In this document: piece after piece, positions 3,074 to 46,560 of the stretch
Numbering within the stretch: the stretch's first letter is position 1
How the letters are laid out: every line of letters begins with the position of its first letter
Assembly: GCA_946403625.1 (NCBI GenBank)
Contig: CAMJAP010000013.1
Coordinates: 1 to 46,560 of the forward strand
DNA length: 46,560 nucleotides
Reading direction: 5' to 3'
Origin: an uncultured Lachnospiraceae bacterium
GTDB lineage: Bacteria; Bacillota; Clostridia; Lachnospirales; Lachnospiraceae
Notes under the pieces: model-generated
Database searches by the model: none
What the model saw: the letters and a program-made list of their open reading frames with translations, nothing else
Told to the model about the DNA's origin: nothing
Position numbers and translations under genes: made by a program

Positions 3074-4680
3074 GTTTCAACCAAGAACGATCTGACGGCT
3101 GCGGTTTCCGCAGCCGTTTTTCAAAAGAAAATTTATTAACGGATCGCAGAAGGCTGAATGTTTGTCTGGTATCCGTTCTTTTTTGGGGACTGGCAGCCCA
3201 TGCGTATGTATTTTTTCACAATACATTTTCGCATGATTCCCTGGCAGAGTTTAATGCGGCGGTCTTTGGCAATGAATGGAAGATGCAGCTGGGACGCGTA
3301 TTTGTGCCGGCGTATCGTTTTTTGTTCCGCGGTGATCTGAATCTGCCGTGGCTGATCGGTGTACTGTCCCTGATCTTTTTGTATGGTGCGGTCTATCTGA
3401 CGGTGCGTATTTTTCATATTCACAGAAACATCATTATGTTTTTGCTGGGCGGCATCTACGCGGCAAACCTGACGGTATCGGCCACGGCAGCGACCTATAT
3501 CAATGATCTGGACAGCAATATGATGGCGCTCTTGATGGCGGTGCTGTCCGTGTTTCTTTGGAAAAAGACGAAGCGCGGCTATCTATGGGGCATGGTACCG
3601 TTGTGTATTTCACTCGGGCTGTACCAGAGCTACATTTCAACGGCCATTACCCTGATCCTGCTCAGTATGATCTTGAAACTGTTAAAGGGCGGGGAATTCA
3701 AGACGGTTGTCCGTAAGGGACTGTTAGCTTGTGTGATGCTGATCGGTGCCGGAATACTGTATCTGCTTGCAATGAAACTGTTATTGATGTTCAGCCCGGT
3801 GAAACTCAAATCGGATAATTACAATTCCGTGACCGGCTTTTTGTCCCTGCAGTTTTCGGCATTGCCGAAGCTGATCGGAAAGGATTATCTGCGTACGGTT
3901 TATCGCATTGTTGCAACGGCATCTTCCTATCCGCAATGGATGGTCATCAGTGTACATGCGGTTTTATTGCTTGTGGGCGGAATGAGTTTTGTGATCTCGC
4001 TCTCCAATCCGAAAGTGGGAAAGAAGGAGCGGATCCTGGCGGCGGTACTGCTTTTGCTGGTTCCGATCGCTATGAATGTGGCCTATATCCTGAGCGGCGG
4101 AATGAGCCATGAGCTGATGCACTTCGCGTTCAATCTGATCTATGTGTTCCTGCTGCTTTTGGCGGATCGTATGGAATGGAACCGGCGATTGCTGCAGTTT
4201 CGAGCGAAGAAGGTCCTGGCCGCGCTCATTGTTCTGATGACATTTTTTATCCTGTGGGGAAATGTGCGTCTGGCCAATACACTGTATTTAAAGAAGAATA
4301 TGGAATACGATGCCAACCTGGTCTTTTTTACCGGGGTGGTGGATCGTATGGAGCAGACGGAAGGCTATGAGATCGGAAATACGCAGGTGGTTTTTGTGGA
4401 ATTGCCGGTGATCCAGTTGGAAGATGCTCCCGGTTTTGAGAGTGTCAGCGCGATCGCGGGAATGTGGAGGAACTACGTTCCTTACGGTACGGATCCATGG
4501 AGTTATCAGGCGTATTTCAAATATGTGCTGCTCAATCCGGCCAGAATGGCGGAGCAGGAAGTCTGGAGCGAAATGCAGGACGATCCGCGTGTGGAAGAAA
4601 TGCCGATCTATCCGGCTATGGGAAGCGTGGCTATGATCGATGATGTGATGGTGGTGCGATTCGGCAGAAGGACCAATTGA
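3070..4680 (+). CDS. GtrII-type multipass membrane glucosyltransferase-domain protein
   Basis: The 536-residue protein has about ten hydrophobic segments, an early conserved-looking 'FSHDSLAEFN' with an acidic residue in the first outer loop, and the overall pattern of the GtrII glucosyltransferase family (polyprenyl-phosphate-sugar dependent, GT-C-like fold). Such enzymes decorate surface glycans or teichoic acids outside the membrane. The only in-frame ATG overlaps the tsf stop (ATGA). Translation from there runs through the tsf terminator hairpin, so the first 25 residues may be little used or the start may be atypical; no in-frame GTG or TTG lies before the first membrane segment. The 3' end abuts a promoter for the next gene. 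Confidence 0.75.
   Translation: MSFNQERSDGCGFRSRFSKENLLTDRRRLNVCLVSVLFWGLAAHAYVFFHNTFSHDSLAEFNAAVFGNEWKMQLGRVFVPAYRFLFRGDLNLPWLIGVLSLIFLYGAVYLTVRIFHIHRNIIMFLLGGIYAANLTVSATAATYINDLDSNMMALLMAVLSVFLWKKTKRGYLWGMVPLCISLGLYQSYISTAITLILLSMILKLLKGGEFKTVVRKGLLACVMLIGAGILYLLAMKLLLMFSPVKLKSDNYNSVTGFLSLQFSALPKLIGKDYLRTVYRIVATASSYPQWMVISVHAVLLLVGGMSFVISLSNPKVGKKERILAAVLLLLVPIAMNVAYILSGGMSHELMHFAFNLIYVFLLLLADRMEWNRRLLQFRAKKVLAALIVLMTFFILWGNVRLANTLYLKKNMEYDANLVFFTGVVDRMEQTEGYEIGNTQVVFVELPVIQLEDAPGFESVSAIAGMWRNYVPYGTDPWSYQAYFKYVLLNPARMAEQEVWSEMQDDPRVEEMPIYPAMGSVAMIDDVMVVRFGRRTN
3095..3121 (+). terminator. Intrinsic terminator of tsf, inside the next reading frame
   Basis: ACGGCTGCGG (3095-3104) pairs over ten bases with CCGCAGCCGT (3108-3117) around TTT and is followed by a run of T to 3121. 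This is a textbook Rho-independent terminator 22 bases after the tsf stop codon. Confidence 0.9.
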
Positions 4681-42299: not shown

Positions 42300-42327
42300 T
42301 TGAGAATAAAATAGATTCTTGATGTTG

Positions 42328-42357
42328 CAGGGAGTCCGTTACGGGCTCCCTGTTTTT
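42328..42357 (+). terminator. Intrinsic terminator of ppdK
   Basis: CAGGGAGTCCG (42328-42338) pairs with CGGGCTCCCTG (42342-42352), one G-T pair included, around TTA and is followed by TTTTT. Confidence 0.92.
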
Positions 42358-42419
42358 ATGAAGTCAAGACCATAACGGCAGTAAATGAGATTTACCTGAA
42401 TCAAAGCTGAGAAAAGACA

Positions 42420-42448
42420 TTGACTTTGGGATATTCTGATCATATAAT
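42420..42448 (+). promoter_or_regulatory. Near-consensus promoter of the three-repeat RNA
   Basis: TTGACT (42420-42425) and a perfect TATAAT (42443-42448) are exactly 17 bases apart. It is one of the strongest promoters in the window. The predicted start (about 42455) is the first base of repeat unit 1. Confidence 0.85.
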
Positions 42449-42451
42449 AAT

Positions 42452-42635
42452 AATGAGCAGAGAGGCCAGCTGGATAGTTATTCTATCAAAGTGGCAGTTG
42501 TAAGAGCAGTGAGGCCTACTGAATGGTTTTATGCTATTAAAGTGGCAGTGGTAACAGCGGTGAGTCCTACCGTGAGGGATTTCATCCAACTAAAGTGGAA
42601 GTTGATGGGCTGTTCTTTATGAACAGCCTTTTCTT
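42452..42635 (+). ncRNA. Candidate structured RNA of three tandem repeats ending in a terminator
   Basis: No reading frame explains this stretch. Three units of about 50 nt each (starting near 42455, 42504 and 42556) follow one plan: GCAG-n-GAG, S-C-C, one base, R-C-U, a small hairpin, AA, AGU, GG-S'. The hairpins are GATAG/CTATC, AATGG/CTATT and GGAT/ATCC. The outer pair changes from GCC/GGC (units 1, 2) to TCC/GGA (unit 3). Such compensating changes indicate RNA structure. The third unit runs into a perfect terminator. It could be a free small RNA or a tandem riboswitch/attenuator for the gene at 42650. I do not recognise it as a named RNA class. Confidence 0.65.
42608..42635 (+). terminator. 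Terminator of the three-repeat RNA
   Basis: GGCTGTTC (42608-42615) and GAACAGCC (42621-42628) are perfect complements with a TTTAT loop, followed by TTTTCTT. It ends 15 bases before the next gene. Confidence 0.93.
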
Positions 42636-42649
42636 ATTGTGGAGGTTAC

Positions 42650-43255
42650 ATGGAACAGAAGGGTATATGTGACGTCTGCCATAAAAACCGTATTTTTTCT
42701 TCTCCAAACTTTTACATTGAAGAAAATGGGAAGAGATATGATATGAGTTTTCTTATTGATGACGGGGGAAATATTATTGGTACGCAGAAAATGGTTCATG
42801 TCGCCCAATGTGAGCAGTTTTACGAACAGAGTTATTATACACCGTCAGAAGAAGGATTTTCCGTGTTCGATACAAAGATTGGGAAGATAGGCGTCGTAGT
42901 CTGTTTTGATCGACATTACCCGGAGAGTATCAGGACAGAGGCTTTGCGTGGAGCAGAGCTAATTCTTGTGCCGACAGCAAATACTACGGCTGAGCCGTCG
43001 GAAATGTTTCAGTGGGAAATAAGGGTTCAGGCATTCCAAAACAGTGTGAATATAGCAATGTGCAACCGGGCAGGAAGAGAAGACGTGATGGTATTTTACG
43101 GTGAGTCGTTAGAGAGCGGTTATGATGGAGAATTGGTTGCTGTTGCCGGCCGCGGGGAGGAATTATTGGTTACAGAAATTGACCTCCCCGGGGCATCAGC
43201 GGCAAGAAATAAAAAGCCGTACACTTTGCTCAGAAGAACGGAATTATATGAATGA
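42650..43255 (+). CDS. Carbon-nitrogen hydrolase, N-terminally truncated
   Basis: The 201-residue protein matches the nitrilase superfamily (N-carbamoylputrescine amidase-like) from its lysine region ('GNIIGTQKMVHV') and nucleophile ('IGVVVCFDRHYPESIR') to the C-terminus ('AAR-NKKPYTLLRRTELYE'). Family members are about 270-300 residues. The first 60-70 residues with the catalytic Glu of the Glu-Lys-Cys triad are missing; homology seems to begin near 'CDVCHKNRIFSSPNFYIEEN'. A good GTGGAGG (42639-42645) precedes the ATG, so it may still be translated, but a normal amidase activity is unlikely. Codon use is AT-richer than in the operons to the left. Confidence 0.72.
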   Translation: MEQKGICDVCHKNRIFSSPNFYIEENGKRYDMSFLIDDGGNIIGTQKMVHVAQCEQFYEQSYYTPSEEGFSVFDTKIGKIGVVVCFDRHYPESIRTEALRGAELILVPTANTTAEPSEMFQWEIRVQAFQNSVNIAMCNRAGREDVMVFYGESLESGYDGELVAVAGRGEELLVTEIDLPGASAARNKKPYTLLRRTELYE

Positions 43256-43261
43256 GGTGTA

Positions 43262-43837
43262 TCAGGTGAAGAGGTATGAGTTAATTGCATCAAGAAAATA
43301 CTGGTGGATGCGATTATCTTCTGCGAGTTCAGGATGGAATGCAAGCCCGATCTGGTTTTTGTACCTCACCCCCACAATATGATCATAGGCAGTAGCAATG
43401 ACATCCACATTGTTTGATACTGACTCAATATACGGTGCGCGTATAAATGTCATGTTGAAGTCAGATATATCTCCGACATCGCCTTTGTAATAAAAACTAC
43501 CCAGCTGTCTGCCATAGGCATTGCGTTTTACAAGGACCGGAAGAGTCCCGAACCAGGTGTTTTCATCATTGCTGATTTTATCAGCAAGAAGAATTAAACC
43601 CGCACACGTCGCAAGAACCGGTAAGCCGTTATTTATCATCTCTTTTAATGGATCCAGCATATGCAGATCCTTCAAAAGTTTGCCTTGTACGGTGCTTTCT
43701 CCTCCCGGAAGAATCAAACCGTCCAAAGTTCCTATATCCGATTTCTGCCTGAGAAGAATGGTGTCTGCACCAAGTGACTGCAAAACAGAACGGTGTTCTT
43801 CAAAGGCTCCCTGAACGGCAAGTATACCGATCCTCAT
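43262..43837 (-). CDS. pdxT: Pyridoxal 5'-phosphate synthase glutaminase subunit
   Basis: PdxT hydrolyses glutamine and passes ammonia to PdxS. The 191-residue protein starts MRIGILAVQGAFEEHRSVL and has the nucleophile Cys in 'LATCAGLILLADKI', the oxyanion 'LILPGGEST' and the His/Glu pair in 'AFHPELAED'. Its start codon is two bases away from the pdxS stop, so the two are coupled. Confidence 0.97.
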   Translation of the reverse strand: MRIGILAVQGAFEEHRSVLQSLGADTILLRQKSDIGTLDGLILPGGESTVQGKLLKDLHMLDPLKEMINNGLPVLATCAGLILLADKISNDENTWFGTLPVLVKRNAYGRQLGSFYYKGDVGDISDFNMTFIRAPYIESVSNNVDVIATAYDHIVGVRYKNQIGLAFHPELAEDNRIHQYFLDAINSYLFT

Positions 43838-43838
43838 A

Positions 43839-44714
43839 TCATTTACCTCGTTCTTCCATGATTAGTTGTATTTCATTTTCGTTGATGCCGACCATGGCTT
43901 CACCGAGATTTTTTGACAGTTCCGCAAGAAGGGCAGGATCATCATAATTTGTAACGGCTTTTACAATTGCAGCAGCACGCTTTTCGGGTTCACCGGATTT
44001 GAATATTCCGGAGCCAACGAAAACACCTTCTGCACCAAGCTGCATCATAAGGGCTGCATCTGCGGGGGTGGCTACTCCTCCGGCTGCAAAATTAACAACA
44101 GGAAGTTTTTTGTTCTTATGGACATACTGTATTAATTCAAATGGTACCTGGTATTCTTTTGCGGCTTCGAACAATTCATCTTCTCTCATTGATGATACAC
44201 GGGAGATTTCTGCCTGCATACGTCTCATATGGCGGACAGCCTGGACAATATCACCGGTGCCCGGTTCGCCTTTTGTCCTTATCATGGAAGCTCCTTCGTT
44301 GATTCTTCTCAATGCTTCTCCGAGGTCACGGGCTCCGCACACAAATGGAACTTTAAAGTCACGCTTATTGATATGATATACATCATCAGCAGGGGAAAGA
44401 ACTTCGGATTCATCAATGTAATCTATCTCGATTGCCTGAAGAATCTGTGCTTCTGCAAAGTGGCCGATCCTGCACTTTGCCATGACTGGTATGGACACAG
44501 ATTCCTGAATTCCACTGATCATAGCAGGATCGCTCATTCGCGACACTCCTCCGGCGGCACGTATATCAGCGGGTATCCGTTCCAAAGCCATAACAGCACA
44601 AGCACCCGCAGCTTCCGCAATTTTAGCCTGTTCCGGAGTCGTAACATCCATGATCACGCCGCCCTTCAGCATCTGGGCAAGATTCTTGTTTAATTCATAT
44701 CGGTTATCTGACAT
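43839..44714 (-). CDS. pdxS: Pyridoxal 5'-phosphate synthase lyase subunit
   Basis: PdxS builds PLP from ribose 5-phosphate, glyceraldehyde 3-phosphate and ammonia as a dodecamer. The ATG at 44714 follows AAGGAGG on the minus strand; the frame is open to 44744 but without a site there. The 291-residue protein has '[20 protein letters not shown]', '[20 protein letters not shown]' and '[20 protein letters not shown]', typical of the family. Confidence 0.97.
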
Positions 44715-44728
44715 TATAGTAATCCTCC

Positions 44729-44757
44729 TTGCGTTTTTGTGCATTCTATTGTAAAAT
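44729..44757 (+). promoter_or_regulatory. pdxR promoter overlapping the pdxS promoter
   Basis: On the plus strand TTGCGT (44729-44734) and TAAAAT (44752-44757) are 17 bases apart. On the minus strand TACAAT (44753-44748) can serve pdxS, with TTGGAT 19 bases upstream. The overlap fits the usual model in which PdxR binds between the two genes, represses itself and activates pdxST. Confidence 0.55.
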
Positions 44758-44802
44758 TGGGCATATGAAAATATCCAAAACAGGAGAAAAATATATACCC
44801 AG

Positions 44803-45885
44803 ATGAGTAAAGCAGGTACAATTGATCATTCGCAACCTCTATATATTAAGGTATATGAGCATATAAAAGAGAATATCGTGGCAGGAGCATATCCCTATGG
44901 CCACAGGCTGCCTTCGAAAAGAATTATGGCCGAGGAAGCAAAAGTAAGTATCATCACCGTTAAGCACGCTTACGAACTGCTGTGCGATGAAGGGTATGTA
45001 GAGTCAAGAGAGCGAAGCGGATATTATGTTGCTTTCCGTGAAGAGGATGGTTTTGCTTGTTCGGAGAAAGAAATGATTTCGCATACTCATCATAGGCACC
45101 AGATGCCTGAATTATCCTTTCCGTTTTCTGTATTAGCCAGGACAATGAGACGGATATTGACTGAGTATGGTGAACAGGTATTTGAAAAATCGACTAACAA
45201 GGGATGCGCCCTGCTTCGGGATGAAATACGAAAATATCTGGGACGCAACAGGAGTGTATACGCAGATATTGAACAGATTATCATAGGATCAGGTGCAGAA
45301 TATTTATATAATCTGATTGTTGGCCTTTTTGGGACGGATACAGTTTTTGCGTTGGAGTATCCGTCATATGAAAAAATAGAAAAGGTTTATCGGGCAGCCG
45401 GCGTTCAGGTCGAAAAACTGCCTTTGGGAGAGAACGGGATAGAAAGCAATGCGCTATCTTCATCAAATGCAGATGTTTTACATGTATCACCATATAGAAG
45501 TTTTCCTTCAGGTATTACAGCATCAGCATCAAAAAAACATGAATATATCAGGTGGGCAGGACGATATGGCCGATATATAATTGAGGATGATTTTGAATCT
45601 GAATTCTCAGTTTCCAGGAAACCGGAAGATACCATGTTCGAATTATCGGAGCATGATAATGTTATATATATGAATACGTTTTCAAAAACCATATCGGAGT
45701 CACTAAGAGTAGGATATATGGTGCTTCCGAAACGCCTGGTTCAAAAATTTGATATGGATATTGGTTTCTACTCATGTACAGTGCCGACATTTGAACAGAT
45801 CCTGATTGCTGAATTGATCCGGAATGGTGATTTTGAAAGGCACATTAACAGAGTGAGAAGAAGGAAAAGAAGAGATGGTGAATAA
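44803..45885 (+). CDS. pdxR: PdxR-like MocR/GntR regulator, C-terminally truncated
   Basis: Residues 1-75 form a GntR winged helix ('[20 protein letters not shown]', '[20 protein letters not shown]'). The rest is a fold-type I aminotransferase-like domain with a PLP lysine in '[16 protein letters not shown]'. MocR regulators are usually 450-480 residues. This one stops at 360 directly after '[12 protein letters not shown]', so about 100 C-terminal residues of the effector domain are missing. Orientation and position opposite pdxS make PdxR the likely identity. The truncation coincides with a junction to an hsdR remnant, so regulation of pdxST by PLP may be lost or altered. Confidence 0.82.
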
Positions 45886-45946
45886 GAGCAAGTTTTTCGC
45901 CATCCTGAAAAATGTCCGAAAAACTTTTAGACCTATGTTGACATAC

Positions 45947-46504
45947 TCTGACGAATCGCACAGATCCATATTTAAGAAGTATCGTGCGATCTTTGAATAC
46001 TTTGATGCTATGCTTGTCGGACTGACAGCTACGCCAAAGACCGAGGTGGATCGGAACACCTACGATTTCTTCGAGATGGAATCGGGAATTCCGACCTATG
46101 CATATGACTACGAGACAGCCGTGAATGTCGATCACGTGCTGGTTCCATATTACAATTACGAGGTGAAGACCAAGTTCCTGGACGAAGGGATCACTTATGA
46201 CGATCTGTCTGAGGCGGATAAGGAACGGTATGAGGATGACTTTGAGGAAGACGGCAAGATACCGGATTTCATCCCTTCGGCAGAGTTGAATAAGTTTGTC
46301 TTTAATGAAAAGACCGTAGATCTGGTGCTGCAGGATCTGATGGAGCGCGGGATCAAGATCGACAGCGGTGATAAGCTGGGCAAGACGATCATCTTCGCAC
46401 AGAACAAGCGCCATGCGGAGTTTATCATTGAACGGTTCAATAAACTATATCCGCTGAAAAAGGGAAAGTTCTGCCAGCGTGTGATCTGTGACGATTCCTA
46501 TGCG
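45947..46504 (+). pseudogene. Internal fragment of a type I restriction enzyme R subunit (hsdR remnant)
   Basis: In a frame open from 45875 to 46543, the part from 'SDESHRSIFKKYRAIFEYFD' onwards matches the motor domain of HsdR: DEAD-like motif II (DESH), motif III 'MLVGLTATPKTEVDRNTYDF', then 'NVDHVLVPYYNYEVKTKFLD' and 'KLGKTIIFAQNKRHAEFIIE'. Similarity seems to stop at 'CDDSYA' near 46504. The nuclease domain before motif II and everything after the first part of helicase domain 2 are absent, and no hsdM or hsdS is in view. The start at 45875 overlaps the pdxR end, with 24 codons of no visible HsdR similarity. Confidence 0.8.
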
Positions 46505-46520
46505 ACAAGGAGGCTCGAGA

Positions 46521-46560
46521 GTGGTTACTTATTCAGCACATGAAAAAGAAATAGTCAGAC
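46521..46560 (+). CDS. Start of an unidentified gene, cut by the window edge
   Basis: AAGGAGG (46507-46513) lies seven bases before GTG at 46521. The frame reads MVTYSAHEKEIVR and runs off the window. Thirteen residues do not identify it. A transposase-like HTH protein is one possibility in view of the rearranged surroundings, but this is a guess. Confidence 0.3.
   Translation, partial: MVTYSAHEKEIVR

Follow-up and report, generated by a model that had tools for sequence, protein, structure and literature searches.

The analysed DNA (the window) is a 46,560 nt stretch of a contig from an uncultured Lachnospiraceae bacterium. Beyond a ppdK gene and its terminator it carries, on the forward strand, a promoter, three tandem repeat units, an intrinsic terminator, a ribosome site with the start of a gene and an open frame for part of a carbon–nitrogen hydrolase; pdxT and pdxS, both whole, lie on the minus strand. 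The features are listed below, S1 and S2 being the two stems of each unit and L2 the loop that carries a further hairpin.

42420..42448, forward: promoter, −35 TTGACT and −10 TATAAT with 17 nt spacing
42456..42503, forward: putative antitoxin unit 1
42458-42460/42470-42472, forward: unit 1 S1, CAG/CTG
42465-42467/42493-42495, forward: unit 1 S2, GCC/GGC, preceded by AAAGU
42473-42477/42483-42487, forward: unit 1 loop-L2 hairpin, GATAG/CTATC
42505..42554, forward: putative antitoxin unit 2
42507-42510/42518-42521, forward: unit 2 S1, CAGT/ACTG
42514-42516/42544-42546, forward: unit 2 S2, GCC/GGC
42522-42526/42534-42538, forward: unit 2 loop-L2 hairpin, AATGG/CTATT
42556..42605, forward: putative antitoxin unit 3 (third-type)
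42558-42561/42569-42572, forward: unit 3 S1, CGGT/ACCG
42565-42567/42597-42599, forward: unit 3 S2, TCC/GGA
42577-42580/42584-42587, forward: unit 3 loop-L2 hairpin, GGAT/ATCC (by eye, letters checked)
42607..42633, forward: intrinsic terminator at the boundary of the array and the putative former toxin gene, aligning with the terminators of relatives
42641..42661, forward: ribosome site GGAGG (42641-42645) and putative toxin-gene start (42650-42661), by likeness to loci L077/L015
42659..43255, forward: C-terminal two thirds of a carbon–nitrogen hydrolase (nitrilase/N-carbamoylputrescine amidase-like; PF00795, TIGR03381)

The promoter scores 11/12 against the consensus, which bears out an earlier note on this DNA that had called it near-perfect. 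Promoter-like sites are not enriched as a class in the surrounding 2.4 kb region (three, against a shuffle mean of 3.6); several related arrays are preceded at equal distance by TTGAC-type boxes and an A+T-rich −10 element, as judged by eye. The units are 48–50 nt each with AAAGTGG in 3/3, and the terminator consists of a 9-pair stem (42607-42629) followed by TTTTC, both much as the earlier note had described them. Units 1, 2 and 3 score 66.3, 61.6 and 54.9 bits with model R1, by construction, since they were themselves built into the model; the same holds for R1 hits on the other loci that went into it.

A search of 250 genomes of the family with PF13958 (ToxN) gave 46 matches in 36 genomes, and the DNA upstream was read for 30 of these matches (those with a locus). 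Upstream of one of them, L015, which lies within L077 (one contig, Lachnospiraceae MAG SIG339), the array of the window recurs, with a promoter, three units, a terminator, a ribosome site and a start codon. Window positions 42411-42667 align with L015/L077 over 261 columns (82%), a stretch that runs from the promoter into the toxin start codons, where ATGGAACAGAAG in the window (MEQK) matches ATGGAGCAGAAG (MEQK) in L077; L077/L015 read MEQKRLNLYTV. The L015/L077 frame continues as a 173-residue ToxN (P0001; 152.8 bits with PF13958), which matches the solved ToxN chains 4ato (E = 2.1e-16) and 2xd0 (E = 4.8e-12), also 7d8o, and weakly the AbiQ structure 4glk. It was assigned to AbiQ by PADLOC (E = 2.5e-32), and an NCBIfam search with it returned no family. 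Named genome contigs were then scanned with P0001, giving 32 ToxN-encoding loci. Upstream inspection covered 30 of the 32 (L096 and L106 were left out), and in ten of these 30 (L077-L084, L086 and L103) a hairpin-type array precedes the toxin start. The record titles of the hairpin-type loci name Lachnospiraceae (mostly MAGs), Oribacterium sp. KHPX15, an Oscillospiraceae MAG and uncultured Clostridiales.

The earlier note had known of no class that fits. The ToxI antitoxins of type III toxin–antitoxin systems do fit, as arrays of this kind precede PF13958 genes. Rfam gave no match to the whole window at gathering score, and an E-value search of 42300-42760 (limit 5) had no ToxI family among the matches listed; the same loose search gave two weak matches, with E = 0.094 and 0.81, far below gathering scores and of no use. 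Part of the former, to suhB, is the terminator hairpin. With the ToxIN systems of Pectobacterium atrosepticum, Bacillus thuringiensis and E. coli (and AbiQ/antiQ) the locus shares its order, namely a repeat array of tandem units behind a promoter and a Rho-independent terminator before the toxin start, together with an H-type S1/S2 pseudoknot, AAGU in loop L2 and, in matching loci, a PF13958/ToxN gene. It differs in its units of about 50 nt with a covarying L2 hairpin, instead of the 34–36 nt given in PMC5086642, and in the absence of a toxin gene from the window, where no ToxN/AbiQ-type gene stands directly downstream. The feature is very probably the antitoxin half of a type III (ToxIN-family) locus from which the toxin gene has been deleted. 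It is an antitoxin array derived from a toxin–antitoxin locus and not a complete locus, because four toxin codons remain and the genome holds no ToxN match; the putative antitoxin function rests on homology, with no cognate toxin found in the genome. According to PMC5086642, every unit of a type III antitoxin binds a ToxN toxin and keeps it occupied, and the earlier suggestion of a multi-site titration RNA for a protein was in that sense right in kind.

Covariation against relatives, unlike folding energy, is decisive for the structure. The folding energy of the window array lies modestly below that of shuffled sequences (z = −2.82; 3/200 shuffles equal or better). For covariation, alignment A1 was assembled from 31 units of 11 loci, leaving out L015, a duplicate L086 row and loci without hairpin units; the structure columns counted were S1 3-6/14-17, S2 10-12/42-44 and hairpin 18-22/32-36. 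Overall 88.7% of cells are paired, and double-sided changes occur in 9/12 pairs (57 cells). None of 500 shuffles of A1 reached either the paired fraction or the 57 double changes (shuffle mean 17.1), and two of 500 reached the number of further pair types. Six slid controls (1–3 columns) gave at best 57.5% of cells paired and 17 double-change cells. The 31 units thus keep rather than break both of the pairings on which the earlier note had built.

S2 is paired in 98.9% of cells across A1. Nine third-type units have TCC/GGA in place of GCC/GGC, which upholds the outer pairing proposed earlier, and a further double change, to GTC/GAC, is found in L079 unit 1; one S2 pair is lost in a single unit, L082 unit 2. 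In S1, three pairs form in 90/93 cells and the fourth (columns 6-14) in 20/31 units. The CAGT/ACTG to CGGT/ACCG pairing of the earlier note is therefore real in three of its pairs, but the fourth is inconstant. It had been put forward as an alternative fold, which it is not, because S1, S2 and the hairpin have no base in common and can coexist; with three compatible helices and no pairing conflict found, the proposed RNA switch is not supported. As judged by covariation, S1 and S2 are the two interlocking stems of an H-type pseudoknot, the architecture described for ToxI (PMC8860590; PMC5086642); the inner hairpin is inserted within loop L2, with S1 on one side of it and AAGU on the other.

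The hairpin is paired in 104/105 cells of the 21 first-type units. In the ten third-type units three of its five columns are mostly unpaired in the first-type register, and window unit 3 has the GGAT/ATCC stem further inside instead of the outer hairpin columns. An automatic arm finder chose stems other than GGAT/ATCC for 9/10 third-type units; given this disagreement and the reading by eye, the third-type hairpin is less well supported than the first-type one. The earlier claim that the inner hairpin is kept by compensation therefore holds for first-type units but not, in register, for third-type units. AAGU before S2 is identical in 31/31 units and agrees, by our own mapping, with the loop bases A19, A20, G21 and U22 described for E. 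coli ToxI (PMC8860590). A U directly follows the 5′ strand of S2 in 30/31 units, and window unit 1 has an A; by the same mapping the missing base would be U12 of the ToxI base triple, and its replacement is possibly a first sign of decay.

In the sister ToxN loci L018, L020, L026, L085 and L089 a few bases lead from S1 to AAGTGG (by eye). A tree was built from 39 ToxN proteins without internal stops, so that the window array, having no toxin, is not included; it is weak at deep forks and on long branches. The seven hairpin-type toxins fall into a single group (fork 99/94). L022 and L029 form another, outside the supported 19-row clade (100/100) that holds the hairpin-type toxins; by eye, their units have a hairpin at the same place in L2, S2 of CTC/GAG type and hairpin arms that vary between units (TTATGGT/ACCATAA, ATGAT/ATCAT and CGG/CCG). 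Loop-L2 hairpins are thus seen in two separate ToxN clades, in the second by eye. Clustering of the hairpin labels on the tree beyond chance was not shown against shuffles (47 and 58/500 as low). By eye, too, the single-unit loci L017, L034, L085, L087-L095 and L097-L100 have a second inverted repeat, of AGCGTTAG.AACTC...GAGTT.CTACA type, in the interval between unit and terminator, and L018, L020 and L026 have one of other sequence.

The L2 hairpin goes unmentioned in the sections of PMC4627078, PMC8860590, PMC3475682 and PMC5086642 that were compared, the Blower 2012 survey lying outside this comparison; the word 'hairpin' is absent from the main texts of PMC4627078 and PMC5086642. CptIN of Eubacterium rectale likewise has longer units (CptI 45 nt) and a long L2 (PMC4627078). 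According to the same paper, L2 of CptI is A-rich with an A-minor twist and L1 is one base, whereas the present units have a hairpin in L2 and an L1 of three bases; moreover, a matching locus encodes a toxin that scores as ToxN and AbiQ. The arrays add to type III antitoxins a clade in which a hairpin is inserted into the very pseudoknot loop that, in known ToxI, contacts S1 through its adenines, and they raise the question of how the ToxN–ToxI ring accommodates it.

In the window the toxin start is joined in frame, from AAG/G on, to the carbon–nitrogen hydrolase; the junction lies within 42659-42662, with an overlap of 3–4 nt. The fused frame is open over 201 residues and covers positions 66-255 of 256 of PF00795 and 84-277 of 279 of TIGR03381, the latter at 116.9 bits against a cut-off of 410.25. 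From residue 4 it aligns with L066 (76%, 292 codons) and L067 (72%, 271 codons). The fragment is without the N-terminal third, including the FPE segment present in L066 and L067, which we take to hold the catalytic Glu of the nitrilase-like family. No ToxN remnant above chance was found in the window beyond the four codons (best E = 0.08). In the own genome PF13958 gave no match and P0001 none at E ≤ 10, PF13958 having matched in 36 other genomes; the assembly comprises 195 contigs at 99.19% completeness, and a toxin gene may lie on a missing piece.

A nitrilase relative was found at E ≤ 1e-30 in the own genome only, of 35 genomes of the genus, and at E ≤ 1e-40 in 15/299 genomes of the family, the own included. 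The sequence after ppdK matches the ppdK loci of the genus (n = 28) only through the ppdK terminator (58 nt, L038 and L064), and the nitrilase piece, pdxT and pdxS were not found in the flanks of up to 1.5 kb of these 28 loci. The whole of 42358-46560, just past the ppdK terminator, has no match in those flanks. GC content in 600 nt steps is 0.47–0.54 over ppdK and 0.39–0.47 after it, a modest drop. From the flank mismatches and the GC drop we infer that the sequence beyond ppdK was probably acquired first and trimmed afterwards. Further on, within 44803-46543, a PdxR (MocR-like) match breaks off at position 359 of the 448 in its profile, and directly after it comes a piece of type I restriction HsdR without start and end. 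This makes a second junction inside a gene, near 45872 and 3.2 kb from the nitrilase junction.

The toxin match is whole in seven of the 11 hairpin-type loci (L077-L083). In the other four a damaged or lost toxin stands beside a well paired array: L084 has a broken frame, the L086 match is shortened internally and shifted out of frame, L103 lacks the C-terminal part (from about residue 50), and the window has lost the toxin. Pairing is 33/33 (S2), 35/35 (first-type hairpin) and 32/33 (S1) at the damaged-toxin loci, against 59/60, 69/70 and 58/60 at the intact-toxin loci. Model R1 run over 397 family genomes, with stricter filters at which weak matches are lost, gave hits in nine. Of eight R1 loci, four have a full-length toxin match (G001, G036, G113 and G415), two a broken one (G363, the same locus as L103, and G425) and two none in the stretch examined (G000, the own genome, and G129). 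The match in G138 (L114, E = 8.1e-4) is likely chance, as neither another unit (by eye) nor a toxin match accompanies it. Over the genus at E ≤ 0.01, R1 matched 3/35 genomes (the own, G001 with ToxN, and G004, a weak match without a toxin match and likely chance), and over the order at E ≤ 0.001 it matched 3/392 (the own, G001 and G129). The G129 locus (L113, G129:C29:184752-184785) is a single ToxI-type unit behind promoter-like sequence with no ToxN match in the stretch examined, and so another antitoxin lacking a toxin, this one without the hairpin. Against the 35 genomes of the genus, the DNA of the window array gave, besides itself, short chance-like matches in four (E = 0.013–0.04); it had no match in phage and plasmid records, and two exact array patterns gave 0 and 0 in viral contigs.

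Several other readings of the locus were weighed. The tandem riboswitch that the earlier note had considered, or some other new regulatory RNA, would suit tandem structured units followed by a terminator, with pyridoxal-phosphate synthesis genes nearby; pdxT and pdxS are however on the opposite strand, the units offer no conflict of pairing that would make a switch, Rfam is silent at gathering score, and the same kind of array precedes ToxN genes in ten other loci, so that we give this reading next to no credence. A riboswitch as nitrilase leader was dropped because the same array precedes ToxN elsewhere. Very improbable, too, is control of the nitrilase-like fragment by the array as a cis-acting leader: the fragment stands in frame behind the toxin ribosome site and the terminator, so read-through would express it, but it has lost the N-terminal third with FPE, an array with a nitrilase was met in no other locus, and the units are as in ToxN-preceding loci. 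Should the fused frame be an assembly artefact, the organism would still have its toxin. The incomplete assembly and the second mid-gene junction would allow for this; the join, however, keeps the frame although the overlap (AAG/G) is so short, ToxN is matched nowhere in the genome, and in L103 (Lachnospiraceae bacterium NC2004, whose record carries no MAG label) the toxin has been lost and the array kept. We consider an artefact quite unlikely.

Most likely the array is a recently orphaned antitoxin remnant, because the genome has no ToxN match and the RNA no known resident partner. Protection against foreign ToxN would be the main live alternative to a plain remnant. Judging from the family, such a remnant would remain able to neutralise any matching ToxN that arrives on another element. 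That the array is kept under selection as an antidote against the ToxN of plasmids, prophages or related strains (anti-addiction, or the disarming of abortive infection) is possible though not probable. Such selection would agree with the arrays kept beside damaged or lost toxins in four of 11 hairpin-type loci, with the four full-length, two broken and two missing toxins of the R1 loci, with pairing that is alike in both kinds of locus and with the frequency of ToxN genes in the family (36/250 genomes). There is also a precedent in phage PhiTE, whose pseudo-ToxI arrays, like the present one ToxI-like repeats without a toxin, have been shown to suppress ToxIN and allow phage escape (PMC3475682). 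Those arrays are phage-borne and expanded under selection, whereas the present one lies on a bacterial contig and would have been left by loss of the toxin gene; no array was met in viral contigs by the two exact patterns, nor its DNA in phage and plasmid records. Kept pairing, moreover, is no proof of function, window unit 1 is without the conserved U, and the frame breaks of L084 and L086 may be metagenome assembly errors. The nitrilase fragment is still open, so toxin loss may simply be recent, with too little time since the deletion for visible decay. That toxin-less ToxI arrays in Lachnospiraceae amount to an RNA immunity against the ToxN of mobile elements or neighbours, with the L2 hairpin tuning ToxN specificity, we regard as doubtful.

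From what is known of the ToxIN family, the array would be transcribed as a precursor of about 180 nt, in which each unit would fold as an H-type pseudoknot with the extra L2 hairpin and be able to occupy ToxN. A matching ToxN, if one arrives, would cut between the units and have a unit held against its active site. Known ToxN cut at A-rich sites (PMC8860590), and in the window array GUAAG and GUAAC are found between the units. An RNA that had been left without a class is identified as to its known class, its structural variant and its probable orphaned state. The loci above include antitoxin arrays that no longer have a toxin beside them, and they make it testable whether an RNA antitoxin with no toxin of its own shields the cell against type III systems from outside; if it does, type III antitoxin arrays may outlive their toxins by being useful alone.

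Two minor observations concern other ToxN loci. Among ten partial ToxN matches inspected, L125, L126, L130 and L131 are partial or stop-bearing ToxN of other subgroups with one, three, two and one upstream units, respectively (by eye). In L082 a second ToxN-like frame lies at 3394-3819 on the minus strand (31.5% identity to P0001, E = 3.7e-13), so that two type III toxins stand side by side on a 4 kb contig with a hairpin-type ToxIN locus.
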